In this document: positions 14,501-21,663 of the stretch, piece by piece
Layout: the number at the start of each line of letters is the position of its first letter
How positions within the stretch are numbered: position 1 is the stretch's first letter
Assembly (NCBI GenBank): GCA_017624115.1
Contig: JAGANQ010000050.1
Coordinates: 1-38,868, forward strand
Direction: 5' to 3'
Length of the DNA: 38,868 nucleotides
Source of the DNA: Lachnospiraceae bacterium
GTDB lineage: Bacteria; Bacillota; Clostridia; Lachnospirales; Lachnospiraceae
Notes under the pieces: model-generated
What the model was told of the DNA's origin: nothing
Seen by the model: the letters and a program-made list of their open reading frames with translations, nothing else
The model's database searches: none
Position numbers and translations under genes: made by a program

Positions 14501-14572
14501 TACATATTTTATATTTTTATGAAGAAAATACATAGAAACAGAGAGTGTTTTTAATATGAAACAGGAGTGATT

Positions 14573-15466
14573 ATGATGGAAGAGAATAAAAGCTATGAAG
14601 GCAGGACAGACCTTGCACTGGAGGCAAGTGAGAGCCTGAAAACCACAGGGCAGCAGGAGAACGGGATTCTGATTGAGGAAGAGTATCAGAAAAAAACAGA
14701 CATCCGCATTACCTGCGTGAGGATTACGAATGAAGAGGCAGAGCAGGCAGTCGGAAAGCCGAAGGGAACGTATATCACTTTGGAATCCCCGGCACTTTTG
14801 TATGAGGATGAGGGCTATCACAGGGAAATATCCACGGAACTTGCCAGGCAGATAAAAAAATTGTTATCAAAGGAGCAGAGACAGTCACTTCTTGTGGTAG
14901 GTCTTGGAAATAAGGAGGTGACGCCGGATGCGCTGGGACCGTTGGCGGTGGGCAATCTTTGTATAACCAGGCATCTGGAGCCGAAGGGACAGACAATCAG
15001 TGCGATTGTTCCCGGTGTCATGGCGCAGACTGGTATGGAGACAGCGGAAATTGTAAAAGGCATTGTCAATGAAACAAGGCCTACAGCGGTAATAGCGATT
15101 GATGCACTTGCCGCCAGAAGTACCAGAAGACTCAATGCTACGATACAGATAGCAGACACGGGAATTCACCCCGGTTCCGGTGTGGGAAATCACCGCCATG
15201 GACTTACAGAAGAAAGTCTGGGTGTTCCTGTGCTGGCGATAGGTGTGCCGACTGTTGTGGATGCGGCAACGATTGTGGGAGATGCGATGGGGCAATTACT
15301 TGACACAATGGAGGAGACAGAGAAGAGAAAGCTGATACACGGAATGCTGGATGAGAGACTTAAGAATCTTTTTGTGACGCCGAAGGATATAGATGAGACT
15401 GTAAAGCGAATCAGCTATACCATTTCAGAGGCAATCAATATGGCTTTTTCGGGCACACGGTACTGA
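14573..15466 (+). CDS. gpr: Germination protease GPR (spore protease)
   Basis: The 297-residue protein initiates degradation of alpha/beta-type small acid-soluble spore proteins during germination. Family landmarks are EGRTDLALEA near the N-terminus (the region where the zymogen is cleaved), LLVVGLGNKEVTPDALGP, AIDALAARSTRRLN and TGIHPGSGVGNHR. An AGGAG site ends 5 bases before ATG 14573 and 8 before ATG 14576, so either ATG may be used. It is divergent from rpsT and heads a sporulation cluster; in Bacillus gpr is also next to spoIIP. A forespore sigma factor is expected to drive it, but I could not fix a convincing sigma-G promoter. Confidence 0.95.
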   Translation: MMEENKSYEGRTDLALEASESLKTTGQQENGILIEEEYQKKTDIRITCVRITNEEAEQAVGKPKGTYITLESPALLYEDEGYHREISTELARQIKKLLSKEQRQSLLVVGLGNKEVTPDALGPLAVGNLCITRHLEPKGQTISAIVPGVMAQTGMETAEIVKGIVNETRPTAVIAIDALAARSTRRLNATIQIADTGIHPGSGVGNHRHGLTEESLGVPVLAIGVPTVVDAATIVGDAMGQLLDTMEETEKRKLIHGMLDERLKNLFVTPKDIDETVKRISYTISEAINMAFSGTRY

Positions 15467-15519
15467 ATTAAAGGTCAGACGAATATACTTAAATACAGAA
15501 AGGTGTGCAGAAAGCGATA

Positions 15520-16797
15520 ATGAAAAAAACACGATGGATTCGGAAATTAATATATGGGCTGGCATGGTCTTTTATTTTGCTGACAGGAATCAGAATAGTG
15601 GTGCATGGATTTTCGGATGTGGGAAATAAATGGTGGAAGGCTGTTTCATATTCTGTTACCGGAGCTGTTTTTCAGACAACAGCTCCGGCTTCTGCTTATG
15701 TTATGGAGGAAAAAAGTGAGACGTTGGCGGAATTTCTGATGCGCTCTGTGCGAAATGCCGCACCGGTGTGGGAGTACGCTGCAAAAAAAAATGCAGGTGA
15801 CAGCAGTCTGCAGGATCCGTTTTATATGGAGAACAGCTATGCAGAGGAGGACAGGGAAGAAGCAACGGATGTTTATATGGCAGAAACGGAAAATATGCGG
15901 ACGGATACCGCTGGGGTATCGGAAATACCGGAGCCGGGTACAGAAGCTTCGCAGGAACAGACTGTGGTTGTGGCAGATAATATTCCATTATCTGCGGATA
16001 TATTTTCTCCGCAGATAGTAGGGACAGAGTATCCGCTTGCCAAGCTTCAGGATTATGATTTTCTGATACAGAATTTTTATGCGGTCAGTGAGATAACGAC
16101 AATTACCAGCAGTGAATTAGATGCAGGTGTATTGCTGGGAAAGGATTTGACGATAACGCAGGGATTTGGAGAACCTCAGATTTTGATTTATCATACGCAT
16201 TCGCAGGAGGAGTTTATGGATTCCAGACCTGGCGCTGTAGAAGATACCATTACAGGCGTGGGTGATTATCTGGCACAGCTTCTGACGGAGCAGTATGGAT
16301 ATTCGGTTTACCATGACAGAACTGCGTATGATATGGTGGGTGGGGTCTTGGACAGAAATGAGGCATATAATTGCGCAGCGGAAGGGGTAGAGGCGTTACT
16401 TAAGGAATATCCGTCGATTGAGGTTGTGATAGATTTACATCGTGATGGTGTCGATGACGGTGTGCATCTTGTGACAGAGATAAACGGAAAGCCGACGGCG
16501 CAAATCATGTTTGTAAATGGCATCAGTAAGACTACTCTGCAGGGGGACATTCCCTATCTCGCCAATCCATACATAGAAGATAATCTGGCATTCAGTCTTA
16601 AGATGCAGCTCAAGGCAGAGGCATATTATCCCGATTTTACCAGAAGAATTATGATTAAAGCATATCGATATAATATGCACTTTAGGGCGAGGTCGCTTCT
16701 GATTGAGGCGGGGGCACAGACGAACACCCTGCAGGAGGCTAAAAATGCCATGGAGCCATTGGCAGTTATACTGCATAAAACGCTGAGTGGAGGTTGA
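15520..16797 (+). CDS. spoIIP: Stage II sporulation protein P
   Basis: This 425-residue protein has one N-terminal membrane anchor (residues ~10-30), a variable linker rich in Glu and Ala, and a C-terminal amidase/endopeptidase domain with LIYHTHSQEEF, VYHDRTAYD, VVIDLHRDGVDDG and LLIEAGAQTNTLQEA. SpoIIP cleaves peptide stems of septal peptidoglycan during engulfment, working with SpoIID and SpoIIM. ATG 15520 is preferred over GTG 15505, which overlaps its own AAAGG site; the spacing from AAAGGTG is long. The next gene is spoIID, 3 bases after the stop. Confidence 0.95.
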   Translation: MKKTRWIRKLIYGLAWSFILLTGIRIVVHGFSDVGNKWWKAVSYSVTGAVFQTTAPASAYVMEEKSETLAEFLMRSVRNAAPVWEYAAKKNAGDSSLQDPFYMENSYAEEDREEATDVYMAETENMRTDTAGVSEIPEPGTEASQEQTVVVADNIPLSADIFSPQIVGTEYPLAKLQDYDFLIQNFYAVSEITTITSSELDAGVLLGKDLTITQGFGEPQILIYHTHSQEEFMDSRPGAVEDTITGVGDYLAQLLTEQYGYSVYHDRTAYDMVGGVLDRNEAYNCAAEGVEALLKEYPSIEVVIDLHRDGVDDGVHLVTEINGKPTAQIMFVNGISKTTLQGDIPYLANPYIEDNLAFSLKMQLKAEAYYPDFTRRIMIKAYRYNMHFRARSLLIEAGAQTNTLQEAKNAMEPLAVILHKTLSGG

Positions 16798-16800
16798 TAG

Positions 16801-17727
16801 ATGAATAAGAAGCTAAACAGAGGAGTTTTTTTCCTTCTGCTTGTGATACTGATTCCGGTGTTCACGACACGTTTTATGAACAGTGCAGGAGGAATAGCGG
16901 AACGCAGCGCAGAATCAGAGAAATGCTATATTATCAGCGGACAGGAGAAGATTCCGCTGGAGGAGTATCTTACGGGAGCGGTGGCCTATTATATGCCGCC
17001 TGATTATGAGGATGAGGCATATAAAACGATGGCGGTGCTGCTTCGCACCTATGTGATAGGGCAGATGGGCGAAGACAGCGAAATCAAAGAAGAACAGCTT
17101 ACGATATCCAGATGCAGCATGGAAGAAATGGAGGTTGCCTTCGGAGAGCAATTTTTACATACCTATTCCCGTTACCAGAGGGCGGTGAATGCAACCAGAG
17201 GGGAGCTCGCAAGCTATGACGGAAAACTGATAGAGCCATATTTTCACCAGGTAAGTGCAGGAACGACGAACAGTCTTAATGGTTATCCGTATTTAAAAGC
17301 GGTTGACAGCAGTCAGGATATTCAGGCAAAAAATTATCTTTCACTCCTGACAGTGCCGGTGGAGGAATTTGTATCAGGACTTCTTAAGGCAGCAGACGCG
17401 AAGGAGGATATTTTCTGGAAAACAGGAACAACAGCAGAGGAACTGATGTCGCAGATAACTTTTCATATGAGAGAGGGCGACTATGTGCAGAGTGTGGTAT
17501 GGCAGGAAACAGAGATAAAGGCGGTAAAGATACAGGAGGCATTTAGTCTTCCTTCGACAGCATTCCGTTTTGAAGCATATGAGGGAAACATCCGCATTAT
17601 GACGAAGGGACTGGGACATGGAATCGGTTTAAGCCTGTACGGTGCAGCACGGATGGCAGAAGAAGGCAAAAATTACCGGGAGATTTTGACCTATTATTAT
17701 ACAAATATTACGGTTTCTGGTGAATAA
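16801..17727 (+). CDS. spoIID: SpoIID-like protein lacking the catalytic glutamate
   Basis: This 308-residue protein has an N-terminal membrane anchor (residues ~8-27) and a SpoIID/LytB domain (IPLEEYLTGAV, LLRTYV, PYFHQVSAGTTNSLNGYPYL, GLGHGIGLSLYGAARMAEEG). SpoIID is a lytic transglycosylase that trims glycan strands opened by SpoIIP. In well-studied SpoIIDs the catalytic Glu lies in a VAAEMP motif; here the same place reads VAYYMP, with Tyr64 in place of Glu. GGAGG precedes the ATG. Gene order spoIIP-spoIID with almost no gap implies coexpression in the mother cell. The identity is firm; enzymatic activity is doubtful. Confidence 0.92.
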   Translation: MNKKLNRGVFFLLLVILIPVFTTRFMNSAGGIAERSAESEKCYIISGQEKIPLEEYLTGAVAYYMPPDYEDEAYKTMAVLLRTYVIGQMGEDSEIKEEQLTISRCSMEEMEVAFGEQFLHTYSRYQRAVNATRGELASYDGKLIEPYFHQVSAGTTNSLNGYPYLKAVDSSQDIQAKNYLSLLTVPVEEFVSGLLKAADAKEDIFWKTGTTAEELMSQITFHMREGDYVQSVVWQETEIKAVKIQEAFSLPSTAFRFEAYEGNIRIMTKGLGHGIGLSLYGAARMAEEGKNYREILTYYYTNITVSGE

Positions 17728-17767
17728 GGAAAGAAACTTCGGTAAGACTATTATCGAGGTGATTGAG

Positions 17768-18595
17768 GTGAGAAGAAATAAATTTTCTACATTTATTAAG
17801 GAAAAAGCGTTTTTATTATTACTGCTCTTGTCAATCTTTGCAGTGGCAGGCATTGTAGCAGTGAATATGGCAAAGGAGGAAAAGGATACAGCACCAAAGC
17901 TTCTGGCAGAGCTGGAAAGCGAGACAACTGTTTCGGAACAGGAAACCAGACAGCAGGCAGAGAAGGAAACGACGACAAAGGCAGAGGAAGAGACGAAGCA
18001 GGTGGCAATGGGGGAAACCTATCCGGGTGATGCAGTTTTGGCAGAAGGAGAATCCGCTTCCGTTCCGGATGTGACAAATCTGATGGATGCGACGGATGAG
18101 CCAAAGACAGACAGTGTGGATGAGCCAGAGCCGGAAAGCGAGGTATCAAAGGCGGTAGATGTCACACCGATGAAGCTTTCCTTTTATGAGGATTCCAAAC
18201 TGGCATGGCCGGTTGAGGGAAATGTAATTCTGGATTTCAGCATGGATGCGACAGTATATTTTGCTACTCTGCAGCAGTACAAGTATAACCCGGCCATTCT
18301 CATTCAGGGAGAGATAAATACACCGGTATTTGCGGCAGCAGACGGTGTTGTCACAGAAATTTCTTCGAATGAGGAAATTGGAAATTATGTGATAATGGAG
18401 CTGGGAAATGACTATACGCTACAGTATGGACAGTTGAAAGCGCTGGAGGTTACCGATGGTGAGGAAGTGAAGGCAGGAGAAATCATTGGATATATCAGTG
18501 AGCCGAGCAAATACTTCGTGACAGAGGGAAGCCATCTGTATCTGAAGATGATGAATGGAGAAACAGCGATAGACCCATTGGATTATATTCAGTAG
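17768..18595 (+). CDS. spoIIQ: SpoIIQ-like membrane protein with degenerate M23 (LytM) domain
   Basis: The protein has 275 residues from GTG 17768 (GAGGTG site at 17755-17760); an upstream GTG at 17720 lacks a site. A membrane segment (~10-32) is followed by a Glu/Thr-rich linker to ~135 and a LytM fold (LAWPVEGNVI, NTPVFAAADGVVTEI, GNYVIMELGN, GEEVKAGEIIGYI). The zinc-ligand motifs of M23 peptidases are lost: HxxxD reads NPAIL and the final HxH reads HLY. B. subtilis SpoIIQ is also an impaired LytM protein that pairs with SpoIIIAH across the septum. Position after spoIID supports SpoIIQ, which in clostridia is commonly adjacent to it. Confidence 0.8.
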   Translation: MRRNKFSTFIKEKAFLLLLLLSIFAVAGIVAVNMAKEEKDTAPKLLAELESETTVSEQETRQQAEKETTTKAEEETKQVAMGETYPGDAVLAEGESASVPDVTNLMDATDEPKTDSVDEPEPESEVSKAVDVTPMKLSFYEDSKLAWPVEGNVILDFSMDATVYFATLQQYKYNPAILIQGEINTPVFAAADGVVTEISSNEEIGNYVIMELGNDYTLQYGQLKALEVTDGEEVKAGEIIGYISEPSKYFVTEGSHLYLKMMNGETAIDPLDYIQ

Positions 18596-18603
18596 AAGCT
18601 GAC

Positions 18604-18673
18604 AGAAAAAGTCTTCTCAGCTTCACACGGGTTTACTTTCTGGAAAACCATGTGTGAAGTGAGAAGACTTTCT
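18604..18673. terminator. Bidirectional terminator between spoIIQ-like and folD
   Basis: A long stem pairs AGAAAAAGTCTTCTCA and CTTCACAC with their complements at 18648-18673. T-runs are present on both strands outside or within the stem base, so it can serve both convergent genes. Confidence 0.85.
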
Positions 18674-18696
18674 GTATGCTGCTTCTGCGAGGTACT

Positions 18697-19536
18697 TTAC
18701 TTTCCGGCTCTGCGTGCTGCCTGTATAACATGCTTGGCAAGTACGGAGGTTGTCACGGTACCGACACCGCCAGGCACAGGTGTAGCCATGGAGGCAGTGC
18801 TCTGGATATCGTCAAAATTGACATCTCCGCAGAGCTTATTATTTTCATCCACATTGATACCGACATCGATGACAATAGCATGAGAGCCTACATATGAGCT
18901 GTCAAGCATTTTTGCACGTCCGGCGCAGGCAATAAGGATTTCTGCCTGCTTGCAGGTCTCCGGCATATTTATGGTTTTCGTGTGGCATACGGTAACTGTA
19001 GCATTGCGCTTCATGCAGAGCATGGCAAGCGGCTTGCCGACAACCAGACTTCTGCCTACGATAGTTACACGCTTACCGCAAAGGGAGATACCGGCATAAT
19101 CAAGCATCTCAATGACAGCCTCTGCAGTGCATGGAGCGAAGCCGCTTTCATCTCCGGCAAAGACCTTTGACATATTGTATGGGCTGATTCCGTCCACATC
19201 CTTTGCCGGGTCAATCATTTTTTCTATAGCCGTTTCGTCAATATGCTTTGGCAGCGGGCGAAGCAGAAGAATACCGTCAATGTCAGAATCGGTATTGATT
19301 TTCTGAAATTCTTTCACGAATTCATCATTTGTAATGCCTGCATCAAATACATAAGAGTCACAGCGAAGCCCAATGGTGCTCATGCGTTTAGTGGCACCTC
19401 TTTCATAGGACATATCATCCGGCTTTTCTCCTACGCGGATGATAGCGAGGTGAGGGATGTAAGAGGAGGCGGAAAGCTCCTGCTTCATAGTATTATTCAT
19501 GGCTGATACAACATCAGCACCTTTTATTATTTTCAT
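18697..19536 (-). CDS. folD: FolD-type methylene-tetrahydrofolate dehydrogenase (cyclohydrolase residues replaced)
   Basis: This 279-residue protein has the FolD architecture: an N-terminal catalytic half and a Rossmann domain with VTIVGRSLVVGKPLA, CHTKT, DVGIN and PVPGGVGTVTTSVL. Ungapped comparison of the stretch VGEKPDDMSYERGATKRM with the usual VG-P-S--YV--K-KA pattern shows that the catalytic Lys four residues after Tyr44 is Ala48, and the usual VQLPLP reads LLRPLP, so the conserved Gln is Leu92. Both residues are needed for cyclohydrolase activity in bifunctional enzymes. NADP(H)-linked dehydrogenase activity is still plausible. AAAGGAG precedes the ATG. It lies 21 bases after fchA in one operon, which would supply the missing cyclohydrolase. 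Confidence 0.92.
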   Translation of the reverse strand: MKIIKGADVVSAMNNTMKQELSASSYIPHLAIIRVGEKPDDMSYERGATKRMSTIGLRCDSYVFDAGITNDEFVKEFQKINTDSDIDGILLLRPLPKHIDETAIEKMIDPAKDVDGISPYNMSKVFAGDESGFAPCTAEAVIEMLDYAGISLCGKRVTIVGRSLVVGKPLAMLCMKRNATVTVCHTKTINMPETCKQAEILIACAGRAKMLDSSYVGSHAIVIDVGINVDENNKLCGDVNFDDIQSTASMATPVPGGVGTVTTSVLAKHVIQAARRAGK

Positions 19537-19557
19537 CTTGAAACTCCTTTCCGTTGT

Positions 19558-20184
19558 TTAGCGCAGTGTATGGCAGATTTGCTCAAAAATTGTATCGGCA
19601 AGTGTGCGTCCTGTTTCGATAAGCCTGTCTGCTTCATCGTTAAGTCGGTCGGCTTCTGCTCTGTTCTTCATGCTTTTGGTGTTGATATAAACATTCATAG
19701 AGGCGCCGAGCAGTGCAGCGCGGAGAAACTGGACACCGACAGCCACATCGCTGATTGCCATGCGGGTTCCCTTTTTGGAAAGCTCCTCCTGCAAAAGCAG
19801 GGCCTCGACAGTCTTGCGCATGATTTCCAGAGGAACGAGGGATGCAGAAAGCAGGGCTTCCTCCAGGACAGCCTCCTTATGTGCCAGCTCTTCTTCGGTA
19901 TTTTTCGGAAGGGAGTAGGCACGGGAGAGTGGTTCAAAGGCTTCGGCATCCTTGTCCATCAGTTCCAGAAGCTCCTGCTGGTTTTGTGACAGCTTATCCA
20001 GAATAACGAGAATGTCCGGTTCATATTCGGAATATTTCTTTTTGCCGAGGGTAAGATTTCCGACCATGCTGCCAAGTGCGGAGCCAACGGCGCCGCCGAG
20101 CGCGCTTGCACCGCCGCCGCCCGGTACAGGGGCTTTGGAGGCCAGGTCAGAAAGAAAGTTTTCGATAGATTCCTGTTTCATCAT
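19558..20184 (-). CDS. fchA: Methenyl-tetrahydrofolate cyclohydrolase / cyclodeaminase family protein
   Basis: This 208-residue protein belongs to the formiminotransferase-cyclodeaminase C-terminal family. Landmarks are the Gly-rich APVPGGGGASALGGAVGSALGSMV near the N-terminus, the helical middle and a C-terminal helix. In clostridia and acetogens stand-alone members act as FchA, interconverting methenyl- and formyl-tetrahydrofolate. The start is the first of two consecutive ATGs (20184), 10 bases after AGGAGG; a much longer in-frame extension upstream has no ribosome-binding site. folD follows directly, so both would serve one-carbon metabolism. No histidine-degradation genes are nearby, which argues against a cyclodeaminase role. 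Confidence 0.88.
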   Translation of the reverse strand: MMKQESIENFLSDLASKAPVPGGGGASALGGAVGSALGSMVGNLTLGKKKYSEYEPDILVILDKLSQNQQELLELMDKDAEAFEPLSRAYSLPKNTEEELAHKEAVLEEALLSASLVPLEIMRKTVEALLLQEELSKKGTRMAISDVAVGVQFLRAALLGASMNVYINTKSMKNRAEADRLNDEADRLIETGRTLADTIFEQICHTLR

Positions 20185-20220
20185 AAAGGAAAATCCTCCT
20201 GTCATGTTCTGATTGTAACT

Positions 20221-20249
20221 AGTATAAAGGAAATGCCGTAAGGTTGCAA
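20221..20249 (-). promoter_or_regulatory. Promoter of fchA-folD
   Basis: On the minus strand TTGCAA (20249-20244) and TATACT (20226-20221) are separated by 17 bp, about 37 bp before the fchA start. Confidence 0.65.
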
Positions 20250-20300
20250 GTAGTCTTGAATGAAAAGTGTATAAATAGCATATATTTGTGAAAAAAACAG

Positions 20301-20382
20301 TTTCGTTATTGTGCAAAATATGGTATTATGACTATAACAGAGAAGTCTGTAGGAAAAACGAATGAGAAGGTCGATGACCTTC
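20301..20382 (+). promoter_or_regulatory. Weak promoter and leader hairpin before the MIP-like gene
   Basis: TTTCGT (20301-20306) and TATTAT (20324-20329) are spaced by 17 bp. A perfect 7-bp hairpin, GAAGGTC-GAT-GACCTTC, occupies 20366-20382 in the leader, ahead of the AAGGGGG ribosome-binding site. Confidence 0.4.
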
Positions 20383-20408
20383 AGAAAAAGTACGAAGGGG
20401 GCTAAGTA

Positions 20409-21143
20409 ATGAAGTATTTAGCAGAATTTATGGGAAGTTTGGTTTTTCTTCTGGGAGGATATGCTTATATGTGTAATATTTCTCTCAAGAAGACGCTGGT
20501 ATCTGCGCTGAACTACATTGAGCTTGTAGTTGCATGGAGTCTGGCAGTAGGCTTTGGACTGGCTGTTGCAGCGATTATGGGTGGTCCGGCATTCCTGAAT
20601 CCGGGTGTTGTGCTCGGAAGTATCATCTGGGGCGGCCTGCCAATCGGTGAAGCAGTATTGTACCTGCTGATGGAATTTCTGGCAGCAGGCGCGGCGGTAG
20701 CTATATGTATGATTTTCTTCTGGGATTCCTTCAAGGCATCCGGCGATGCACCAAAGAGAGGCATTTTTTCTGCATATCCGGTAGAGAAGAATGTACCGCT
20801 TAATTTTATACAGGAGGTTATTGCTACATTTGTATTCCTGTTCCTGGTATTTATGGGGATTGCAGGAGTAGGAAGTCTGACAGCAAGCAATCAGGCGCTG
20901 GTAGTAGGATTGGTAGGCTTTGGCGCAGTTGCATTTCTGGCGCTTACACTTAACAGCACAGGCTTCAGCATGAATGCCATGCGTTCTGTATTCAGCAGCA
21001 TTTGGTTTACTATCCTGCCGATTCCGAATAAGGGAAAGGAAAAGGTAGACTGGAGCTATCAGCTTATCGTAAATCTGGTTGGTTCTTCTATTGGTGCAGT
21101 TCTGGCAGTTATTGTCACATCATGTATCAAGGCTGCCTTATAA
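20409..21143 (+). CDS. Aquaporin/glycerol-facilitator (MIP) superfamily protein with altered NPA boxes
   Basis: This 244-residue membrane protein has about six hydrophobic segments arranged as two repeats. The first pore motif reads AFLNPGVVLG (Asn64-Pro65-Gly66 instead of NPA). The second reads STGFSMNAMRSV (Asn189-Ala190-Met191-Arg192 instead of NPAR). Both Asn residues and the Arg of the selectivity filter are kept, but the half-helix caps differ from ordinary aquaporins. Glu7 and the other repeat-start positions fit the family. Substrate (water, glycerol, other small solutes) cannot be stated. AAGGGGG precedes the ATG. No glycerol kinase or other metabolic partner is adjacent. Confidence 0.75.
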   Translation: MKYLAEFMGSLVFLLGGYAYMCNISLKKTLVSALNYIELVVAWSLAVGFGLAVAAIMGGPAFLNPGVVLGSIIWGGLPIGEAVLYLLMEFLAAGAAVAICMIFFWDSFKASGDAPKRGIFSAYPVEKNVPLNFIQEVIATFVFLFLVFMGIAGVGSLTASNQALVVGLVGFGAVAFLALTLNSTGFSMNAMRSVFSSIWFTILPIPNKGKEKVDWSYQLIVNLVGSSIGAVLAVIVTSCIKAAL

Positions 21144-21210: not shown

Positions 21211-21579
21211 TGAGTAGGACAGATGGTCGCGGCTGCAATGCCGAAAGGCAGCAGGTGAGGAAAGTCCGGGCTTCACAGGGCAGAATGCCGGATAACGTCC
21301 GGTGGAGGTGACTCCAAGGCTAGTGCAACAGAAATAAACCGCCGATGAAACAGCAAACCTGTTTGCTGTTTCATTTGGTAAGGGTGGAAAGGCAGTGCAA
21401 GAGACTACCGCCCTGTTGGTAACAGCAGGGGCACATGTAAACCCCATTCGAAGCAAGACCGAACAGAAAGCGATACGGCTGCCCGTCGTGCTTTCGGGTA
21501 GGTTGCTTGAGCCTGCTGGCAACAGCGGGACTAGATAGATGACCATCAAAAACATAACCCGGCTTATAGTCCTGCTCAT
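21211..21579 (+). ncRNA. rnpB: RNase P RNA (catalytic RNA of ribonuclease P)
   Basis: The universal segments are present in order: GAGGAAAGTCCGGGCT near the 5' end, ACAGAAA, GAGACTACCGCCC, GTAAACCCC and CCCGGCTTATAG near the 3' end. The termini pair (TGAGTAGGAC with GTCCTGCTCA), defining helix P1. Length (~369 bases) fits the bacterial RNA. It matures the 5' ends of tRNAs. It has its own promoter. Confidence 0.95.
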
Positions 21580-21663
21580 ATTACAATGAAAGTCATTTCA
21601 ATCGATTTTCAGACATGTGATGCCTGTGCAGGCAGACATGCAGTTTAATGTTTAAAATCGGGG

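Follow-up and report, generated by a model that had tools for sequence, protein, structure and literature searches.

The window analysed here is a stretch of 38,868 nucleotides from a Lachnospiraceae bacterium (contig JAGANQ010000050.1, positions 1 to 38,868), in which two genes, fchA and folD, lie one behind the other on the reverse strand. The first of the pair, fchA (19558..20184), encodes a protein of 208 aa, a predicted methenyl-THF cyclohydrolase of the FTCD_C family (PF04961), and is followed on the same strand by folD (18697..19536; an open frame with PF00763 and PF02882), which encodes a predicted monofunctional 5,10-methylene-THF dehydrogenase of 279 aa. The stop of fchA is separated from the start of folD by 21 bases (19537..19557, reverse strand) that hold the folD ribosome-binding site AAAGGAG, and a plausible ribosome-binding site also precedes fchA. 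A possible sigma-70-like promoter, TTGCAA-17-TATACT, with a weak match to the consensus, is located upstream of fchA (20221..20249, reverse strand); the scan returned 7 such sites against 2.7 expected in shuffles. Rfam gave no match to a folate riboswitch or any other known RNA upstream of fchA, and a scan of 18500-20500 for rho-independent terminators listed none in the interval that separates folD from its convergent neighbour, although inspection of the sequence shows an inverted repeat near 18610-18680.

The neighbouring genes lie on the opposite strand. A gene for a MIP-family channel (20409-21143, forward strand) diverges from fchA across a short gap, and the bacterial class A RNase P RNA (21211-21582, forward strand) was recovered at full length with 308 bits, about 1 kb from fchA. 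Convergent with folD is a run of sporulation genes (14567-18595, forward strand; germination protease, SpoIIP, SpoIID, and an M23 peptidase), which makes the organism probably a spore former. The closest named relatives are Lachnospiraceae genomes, for example Lachnospira, Hungatella, and Lacrimispora.

The folD product is matched end to end by PF00763 (catalytic domain, 98.9 bits) and PF02882 (NAD(P)-binding domain, 184.9 bits), each of which exceeds its cut-off, and all NCBIfam models among the best 25 listed scored below their own cut-offs, the bifunctional FolD equivalog included. It is the single FolD of the source-genome assembly (2.0 Mb, 94 contigs, 76% complete), and no second, bifunctional FolD was found elsewhere in this assembly, which at 76% completeness could miss one. 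A sequence search of solved structures gave Thermus FolD (6v6y) as the best relative. The predicted model, with a mean pLDDT of 95 and residues 39-55 forming one helix, has the same whole-length two-domain fold as the bifunctional FolD/MTHFD1 enzymes (Z 37-40, rmsd 1.0-1.5 Å): Z was 40.5 with an rmsd of 1.0 Å over 275 residues for 6v6y, 38.5 with 1.4 Å over 275 residues for human 1a4i, and 37.3 with 1.5 Å over 278 residues for E. coli 1b0a. The substrate-binding Tyr44 (human Tyr52, E. coli Tyr50) is kept in all 314 FolDs scored in this study, the substrate-binding Asp115 (human Asp125) in 313 of the 314, in both cases including the FolD of the window, and the Gly-rich loop and the Rossmann GRS motif are likewise present.

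Two catalytic residues are missing. Codon 48 (19393..19395, reverse strand) encodes Ala where bifunctional FolDs carry the catalytic Lys of the YxxxK motif (E. coli K54, human K56), and codon 92 (19261..19263, reverse strand) encodes Leu, within LLRPLP, where they carry the Gln of VQLPLP (E. coli Q98, human Q100). An earlier note on this DNA had proposed both substitutions from an ungapped comparison, and the HMMER alignments to solved FolDs bear this out, being gap-free from Tyr44 to PLP96 and placing Ala48 under the Lys and Leu92 under the Gln. The residues that mark a bifunctional FolD, catalytic Lys and VQLPLP Gln, are thus both absent. In the proposed cyclohydrolase mechanism, the Lys serves as general acid-base and is held in place by the Gln (PMC3338484; PMC3368264), so that a FolD lacking both is expected to lack cyclohydrolase activity. 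In agreement with the note's statement that mutations at these two sites abolish that activity, E. coli FolD K54N has undetectable cyclohydrolase and about 19% dehydrogenase activity, while Q98H retains about 1% and about 8%, respectively (PMC5688156).

Across 314 readable FolDs, site 48 was occupied by A, V, I, L, or M in 184 sequences, by Gln in 10, and by Lys in 120. The VQLPLP Gln was kept in every one of the 120 sequences with Lys at site 48 and was replaced by F, L, or M in 182 of the 184 with a hydrophobic residue there. The double change at Lys48 and Gln92 is fixed across a whole subfamily of FolDs and is not a chance event in one sequence.

The earlier note had raised the question of a correlation between Lys loss and fchA across genomes, and this correlation turned out to be nearly perfect: an FchA-family (FTCD_C) gene was present in 192 of 192 sampled Clostridia genomes with a Lys-less FolD and in 2 of 114 with only a Lys-bearing FolD (Fisher p ~7e-83, a value that ignores kinship). 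The window's family was sampled with 200 genomes, one per genus and each at least 85% complete, in which the score of the FolD N-domain was bimodal and an FTCD_C gene scored above cut-off in 90. FolDs were fetched from nearly all FTCD_C-bearing genomes of this family and from a sample of the others, the Lys-less FolDs of the family having been reached largely via their FchA loci. With the exceptions listed below, site 48 was A, V, I, or L and site 92 was F or L in every FolD from FchA-bearing genomes of the family, while Lys and Gln were found in every full-length FolD read from its genomes without FTCD_C; FolD was read in 112 of the sampled genomes without FTCD_C, and the call on the remainder of the window's family rests on the bimodality of the score. 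Gene order was also well conserved, with fchA directly upstream on the same strand at 81 of 88 Lys-less loci of the family. Among the named relatives, the Lys was absent in 80 of 80, and fchA lay within the fetched flanks in 69.

The same pattern held in a class-wide sample of 293 genomes spread over Clostridia, 111 of which carried FTCD_C. A profile built from Lys-less FolDs ranked the FolDs of FchA-bearing genomes at the top and those of genomes without FTCD_C below, and most class-wide sequences combined a hydrophobic residue at 48 with F, L, or M at 92. An attempt to break the rule with FolDs from genomes without FTCD_C that had the lowest Lys-less-profile scores or came from other families returned Lys and Gln in 38 of 38. 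Nine families held both types of FolD (the window's own, f7, f15, f32, f36, f37, f38, f53, and f64), and the type tracked FchA in each of them. Outside the window's family fchA was frequently unlinked, at 38 of 91 FolDs of the hydrophobic type and at all 10 of a second, Gln type, and it was never missing.

This second form, found in family f37 (10 FolDs; L298-L301 and L303-L308), has Gln in place of the Lys, keeps the Gln of VQLPLP, and has a non-adjacent fchA in 10 of 10 cases. It represents another way of arriving at a FolD that lacks the Lys and is accompanied by FchA.

Exceptions were few. Two genomes (G152 and G246) had a Lys-bearing FolD and yet an FTCD_C gene, the product of which was just 36% identical to the window FchA in G152, and three others (G014, G269, and G352) had FchA with no FolD found. 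Both FolD types were present in G077 (L141/L066), G136 (L140/L071), and G202 (L278/L374), with the Lys-less copy beside fchA; such genomes are natural cases for asking whether the two types serve different pathways. In G029, G054, and G104, the apparently divergent FolDs without FchA proved to be fragments truncated where a contig ends; the one in G029 has L92, and a search of that genome, which is 88% complete, gave no FchA. Family f30 (L323/G299, L319/G277, and L322/G225) contains very divergent Lys-less FolDs together with lower-scoring FTCD_C proteins, which are fast-evolving versions of the pair.

Further columns distinguished the two types. Besides 48 and 92, the positions that best separated Lys-bearing from Lys-less FolDs included 263, 93, 45, 34, and 41, with changes in the Lys-less type from Ile or Val to Thr at 263, Leu to Arg at 93, Val to Glu at 45, to Arg at 34, and Ser to Asp at 41. 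The window FolD accordingly differs from the bifunctional enzymes not only by Ala48 and Leu92 but also by Asp, Glu, Arg, and Thr for Ser41, Val45, Leu93, and Ile263; its Thr263 is encoded at 18748..18750 (reverse strand), a codon for Ile, Val, or Arg in Lys-bearing FolDs. By numbering, positions 263, 93, 45, and 41 correspond to human Val280, Leu101, Ile53, and Ser49, all of which are listed among the residues that line or serve the catalytic site (PMC3368264; PMC6443876). Thr263 recurs in 9 of the 10 Lys-to-Gln FolDs. From these columns, the Lys-less active site looks rebuilt rather than merely broken. It is conceivable, though on balance doubtful, that the Lys-less FolDs make up a distinct, ancient subfamily in which all these residues (hydrophobic 48 and 92 with D41, E45, R93, T263, and R34) were exchanged together when the site was rebuilt, in a way that would improve hydride transfer or allow methenyl-THF to be handed directly to FchA; the recurrence of Thr263 in the Lys-to-Gln form would then suggest convergence on an enzyme with dehydrogenase activity only. 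As a separate observation, the column of folD codon 186 was Ser in 117 of 120 Lys-bearing FolDs and Thr in 105 of 184 Lys-less ones, including the window FolD. The equivalent human residue, Ser197, binds the 2'-phosphate of NADP (PMC9173628), and the Lys-less subfamily may accordingly differ in its choice of coenzyme.

Taken together, the lost residues, the adjacency of the genes, the fold, and the almost invariable pairing of Lys-less FolD with FchA across Clostridia point to a division of labour in which the window FolD acts solely as the dehydrogenase and the cyclohydrolase step falls to FchA, a reading to which I assign a probability of roughly 0.88. The fchA-folD pair would then be a two-gene unit dividing the step of a bifunctional FolD, as the earlier note had suggested and as the genome counts support at the level of sequence. 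FolD would convert 5,10-methylene-THF to 5,10-methenyl-THF with NAD(P), or catalyse the reduction in reverse, and would no longer open the methenyl ring, the Lys/Gln pair for that reaction being lost; FchA would hydrolyse 5,10-methenyl-THF to 10-formyl-THF, or catalyse the cyclisation in reverse. We infer both the absence of cyclohydrolase activity from the window FolD and its presence in FchA, and FolD probably keeps its dehydrogenase activity, since the remainder of the site is conserved. Among the points against this model is that in E. coli, loss of either residue weakens the dehydrogenase as well, so that the remodelled site must compensate.

It is improbable that the window FolD is still bifunctional through another group, such as Lys50 or a new residue near R93 and E45, with FchA as an additional cyclohydrolase that boosts the step. 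A site remodelled as a set (S41D, V45E, L93R, and I263T) might conceivably have a new catalytic arrangement, but a bifunctional FolD of this kind predicts Lys-less FolDs in genomes lacking FchA, of which there were none among the 192. Lys50, the residue that the earlier note had singled out as a potential refutation of its own proposal, is ruled out by sequence as a catalytic Lys that has moved: among the 120 Lys48-bearing FolDs, 85 have K and 21 have R at position 50, and bifunctional enzymes thus carry a basic residue here in addition to the catalytic one. Moreover, the E. coli K54N enzyme keeps a basic residue at 56, yet its cyclohydrolase activity is undetectable (PMC5688156).

The identity of FchA has a bearing on a second alternative, namely that the FTCD_C protein acts in histidine or purine breakdown as a formimino-THF cyclodeaminase, and that its adjacency to folD reflects a mere cluster of folate genes. 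The Pfam family is indeed named after the cyclodeaminase domain, and the NCBIfam FchA equivalog (NF045657) covered the full length of the window protein with 183.4 bits, below the cut-off of 275, which weakens the FchA name and not the kinship. PF04961 itself matched with E 2e-65 and 220 bits, in agreement with the note's description of a separate cyclohydrolase-family protein, and here FTCD_C occurs as a stand-alone protein of the size expected for an FchA (~205 aa). The closest solved relative is a methenyl-THF cyclohydrolase, the Methylorubrum-type FchA of 7vg4/7vg5 (201 residues; E 2e-43 for 7vg4), and the FTCD enzyme follows only at 5e-24. The methylotroph FchA partners MtdA, which is not a FolD homologue. 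In the 76%-complete source assembly, the window fchA is the one FTCD_C gene and no glutamate formiminotransferase (PF02971) was found, which makes histidine breakdown a less likely job for the window FchA. No formyl-THF synthetase was found in this assembly either. Since a cyclodeaminase would also leave the strict link with the loss of cyclohydrolase residues in FolD unexplained, this alternative is considered very improbable. Neither FolD nor FchA reaches a curated NCBIfam cut-off among the models listed, and the automatic annotation of both hence rests on weaker rules.

The counts are also to be read against the history of the genes. A quick FolD tree, calculated with the trait columns removed, showed one change of Lys state (split support 56, with several long branches), and the Lys-to-Gln FolDs fell near Lys-bearing ones. 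A paired-contrast test on this tree had no power, with a single change of state. Loss of the residue and acquisition of fchA were thus not many independent events on the gene tree, and the Lys-less FolDs are probably, as far as the tree can tell, an old subfamily that moved or was kept with fchA rather than the product of many separate losses. That shared ancestry alone accounts for the association, Lys-less FolD and fchA being co-inherited without functional dependence, is hardly credible, for although kin sequences inflate the count of 192 against 2, the FolD types alternate within nine families with FchA tracking the type each time, fchA is never missing where it is unlinked, and the Lys-to-Gln form, a second chemical solution, has the same companion, all of which argues against mere co-inheritance.

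A division of the FolD step between two proteins is already established for several clostridia, and the split is consequently less novel than it first appeared. C. perfringens FolD is reportedly a dehydrogenase only, and E. coli FolD is said to be replaceable only by folD and fchA in combination. A separate cyclohydrolase, FchA, is described for this species, next to FolD and Fhs (Aluri et al. 2016, cited in PMC7219735). The proteins of Clostridium formicoaceticum and Acetobacterium woodii are monofunctional, unlike that of Moorella thermoacetica (PMC9124964), and the enzyme of Peptostreptococcus productus, the present-day Blautia producta, is described as monofunctional and NADP-dependent (PMC6443876). 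These clostridial and acetogen pairs use two proteins for two reactions, like the pair in the window, which in contrast comes from an uncharacterised Lachnospiraceae-type genome. Two Blautia FolDs (L221 and L232) resemble the window FolD in having SYERGATKRC and LLFRPLP (A48/F92) and an adjacent fchA, the sequence of the assayed strain not being among them. Most acetogens are reported to have both fchA and folD, with folD still named bifunctional (PMC10103890).

Outside bacteria, the monofunctional, NAD-dependent 5,10-methylene-THF dehydrogenase MTD1 of yeast (1edz) matched the window FolD structurally over the whole length (Z 29.1); at 21% identity and E 4e-7 it is much more distant in sequence than the bifunctional bacterial enzymes, and a separate origin is likely. 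The main addition made here is the sharp rule linking residue to FchA, together with its hold across the class, the exclusion of Lys50, the Gln form, and the co-varying residues.

Lys-less FolD and FchA occur in nearly half of the sampled genera of the window's family and in many other Clostridia, and annotation passes the name 'bifunctional' to such FolDs by similarity. Lys-less FolDs would form a natural set with separated activities that is useful for working out the roles of the Lys and the Gln. The inhibitor carolacton fails to bind E. coli FolD K54N (PMC5688156), and by extension one would expect natural insensitivity to it in Lys-less FolDs. The rule itself concerns a single residue of YxxxK, where Lys, a hydrophobic residue, or Gln predicts with almost no exceptions whether a separate cyclohydrolase is present, and metabolic models of gut anaerobes and acetogens could accordingly be corrected from sequence.
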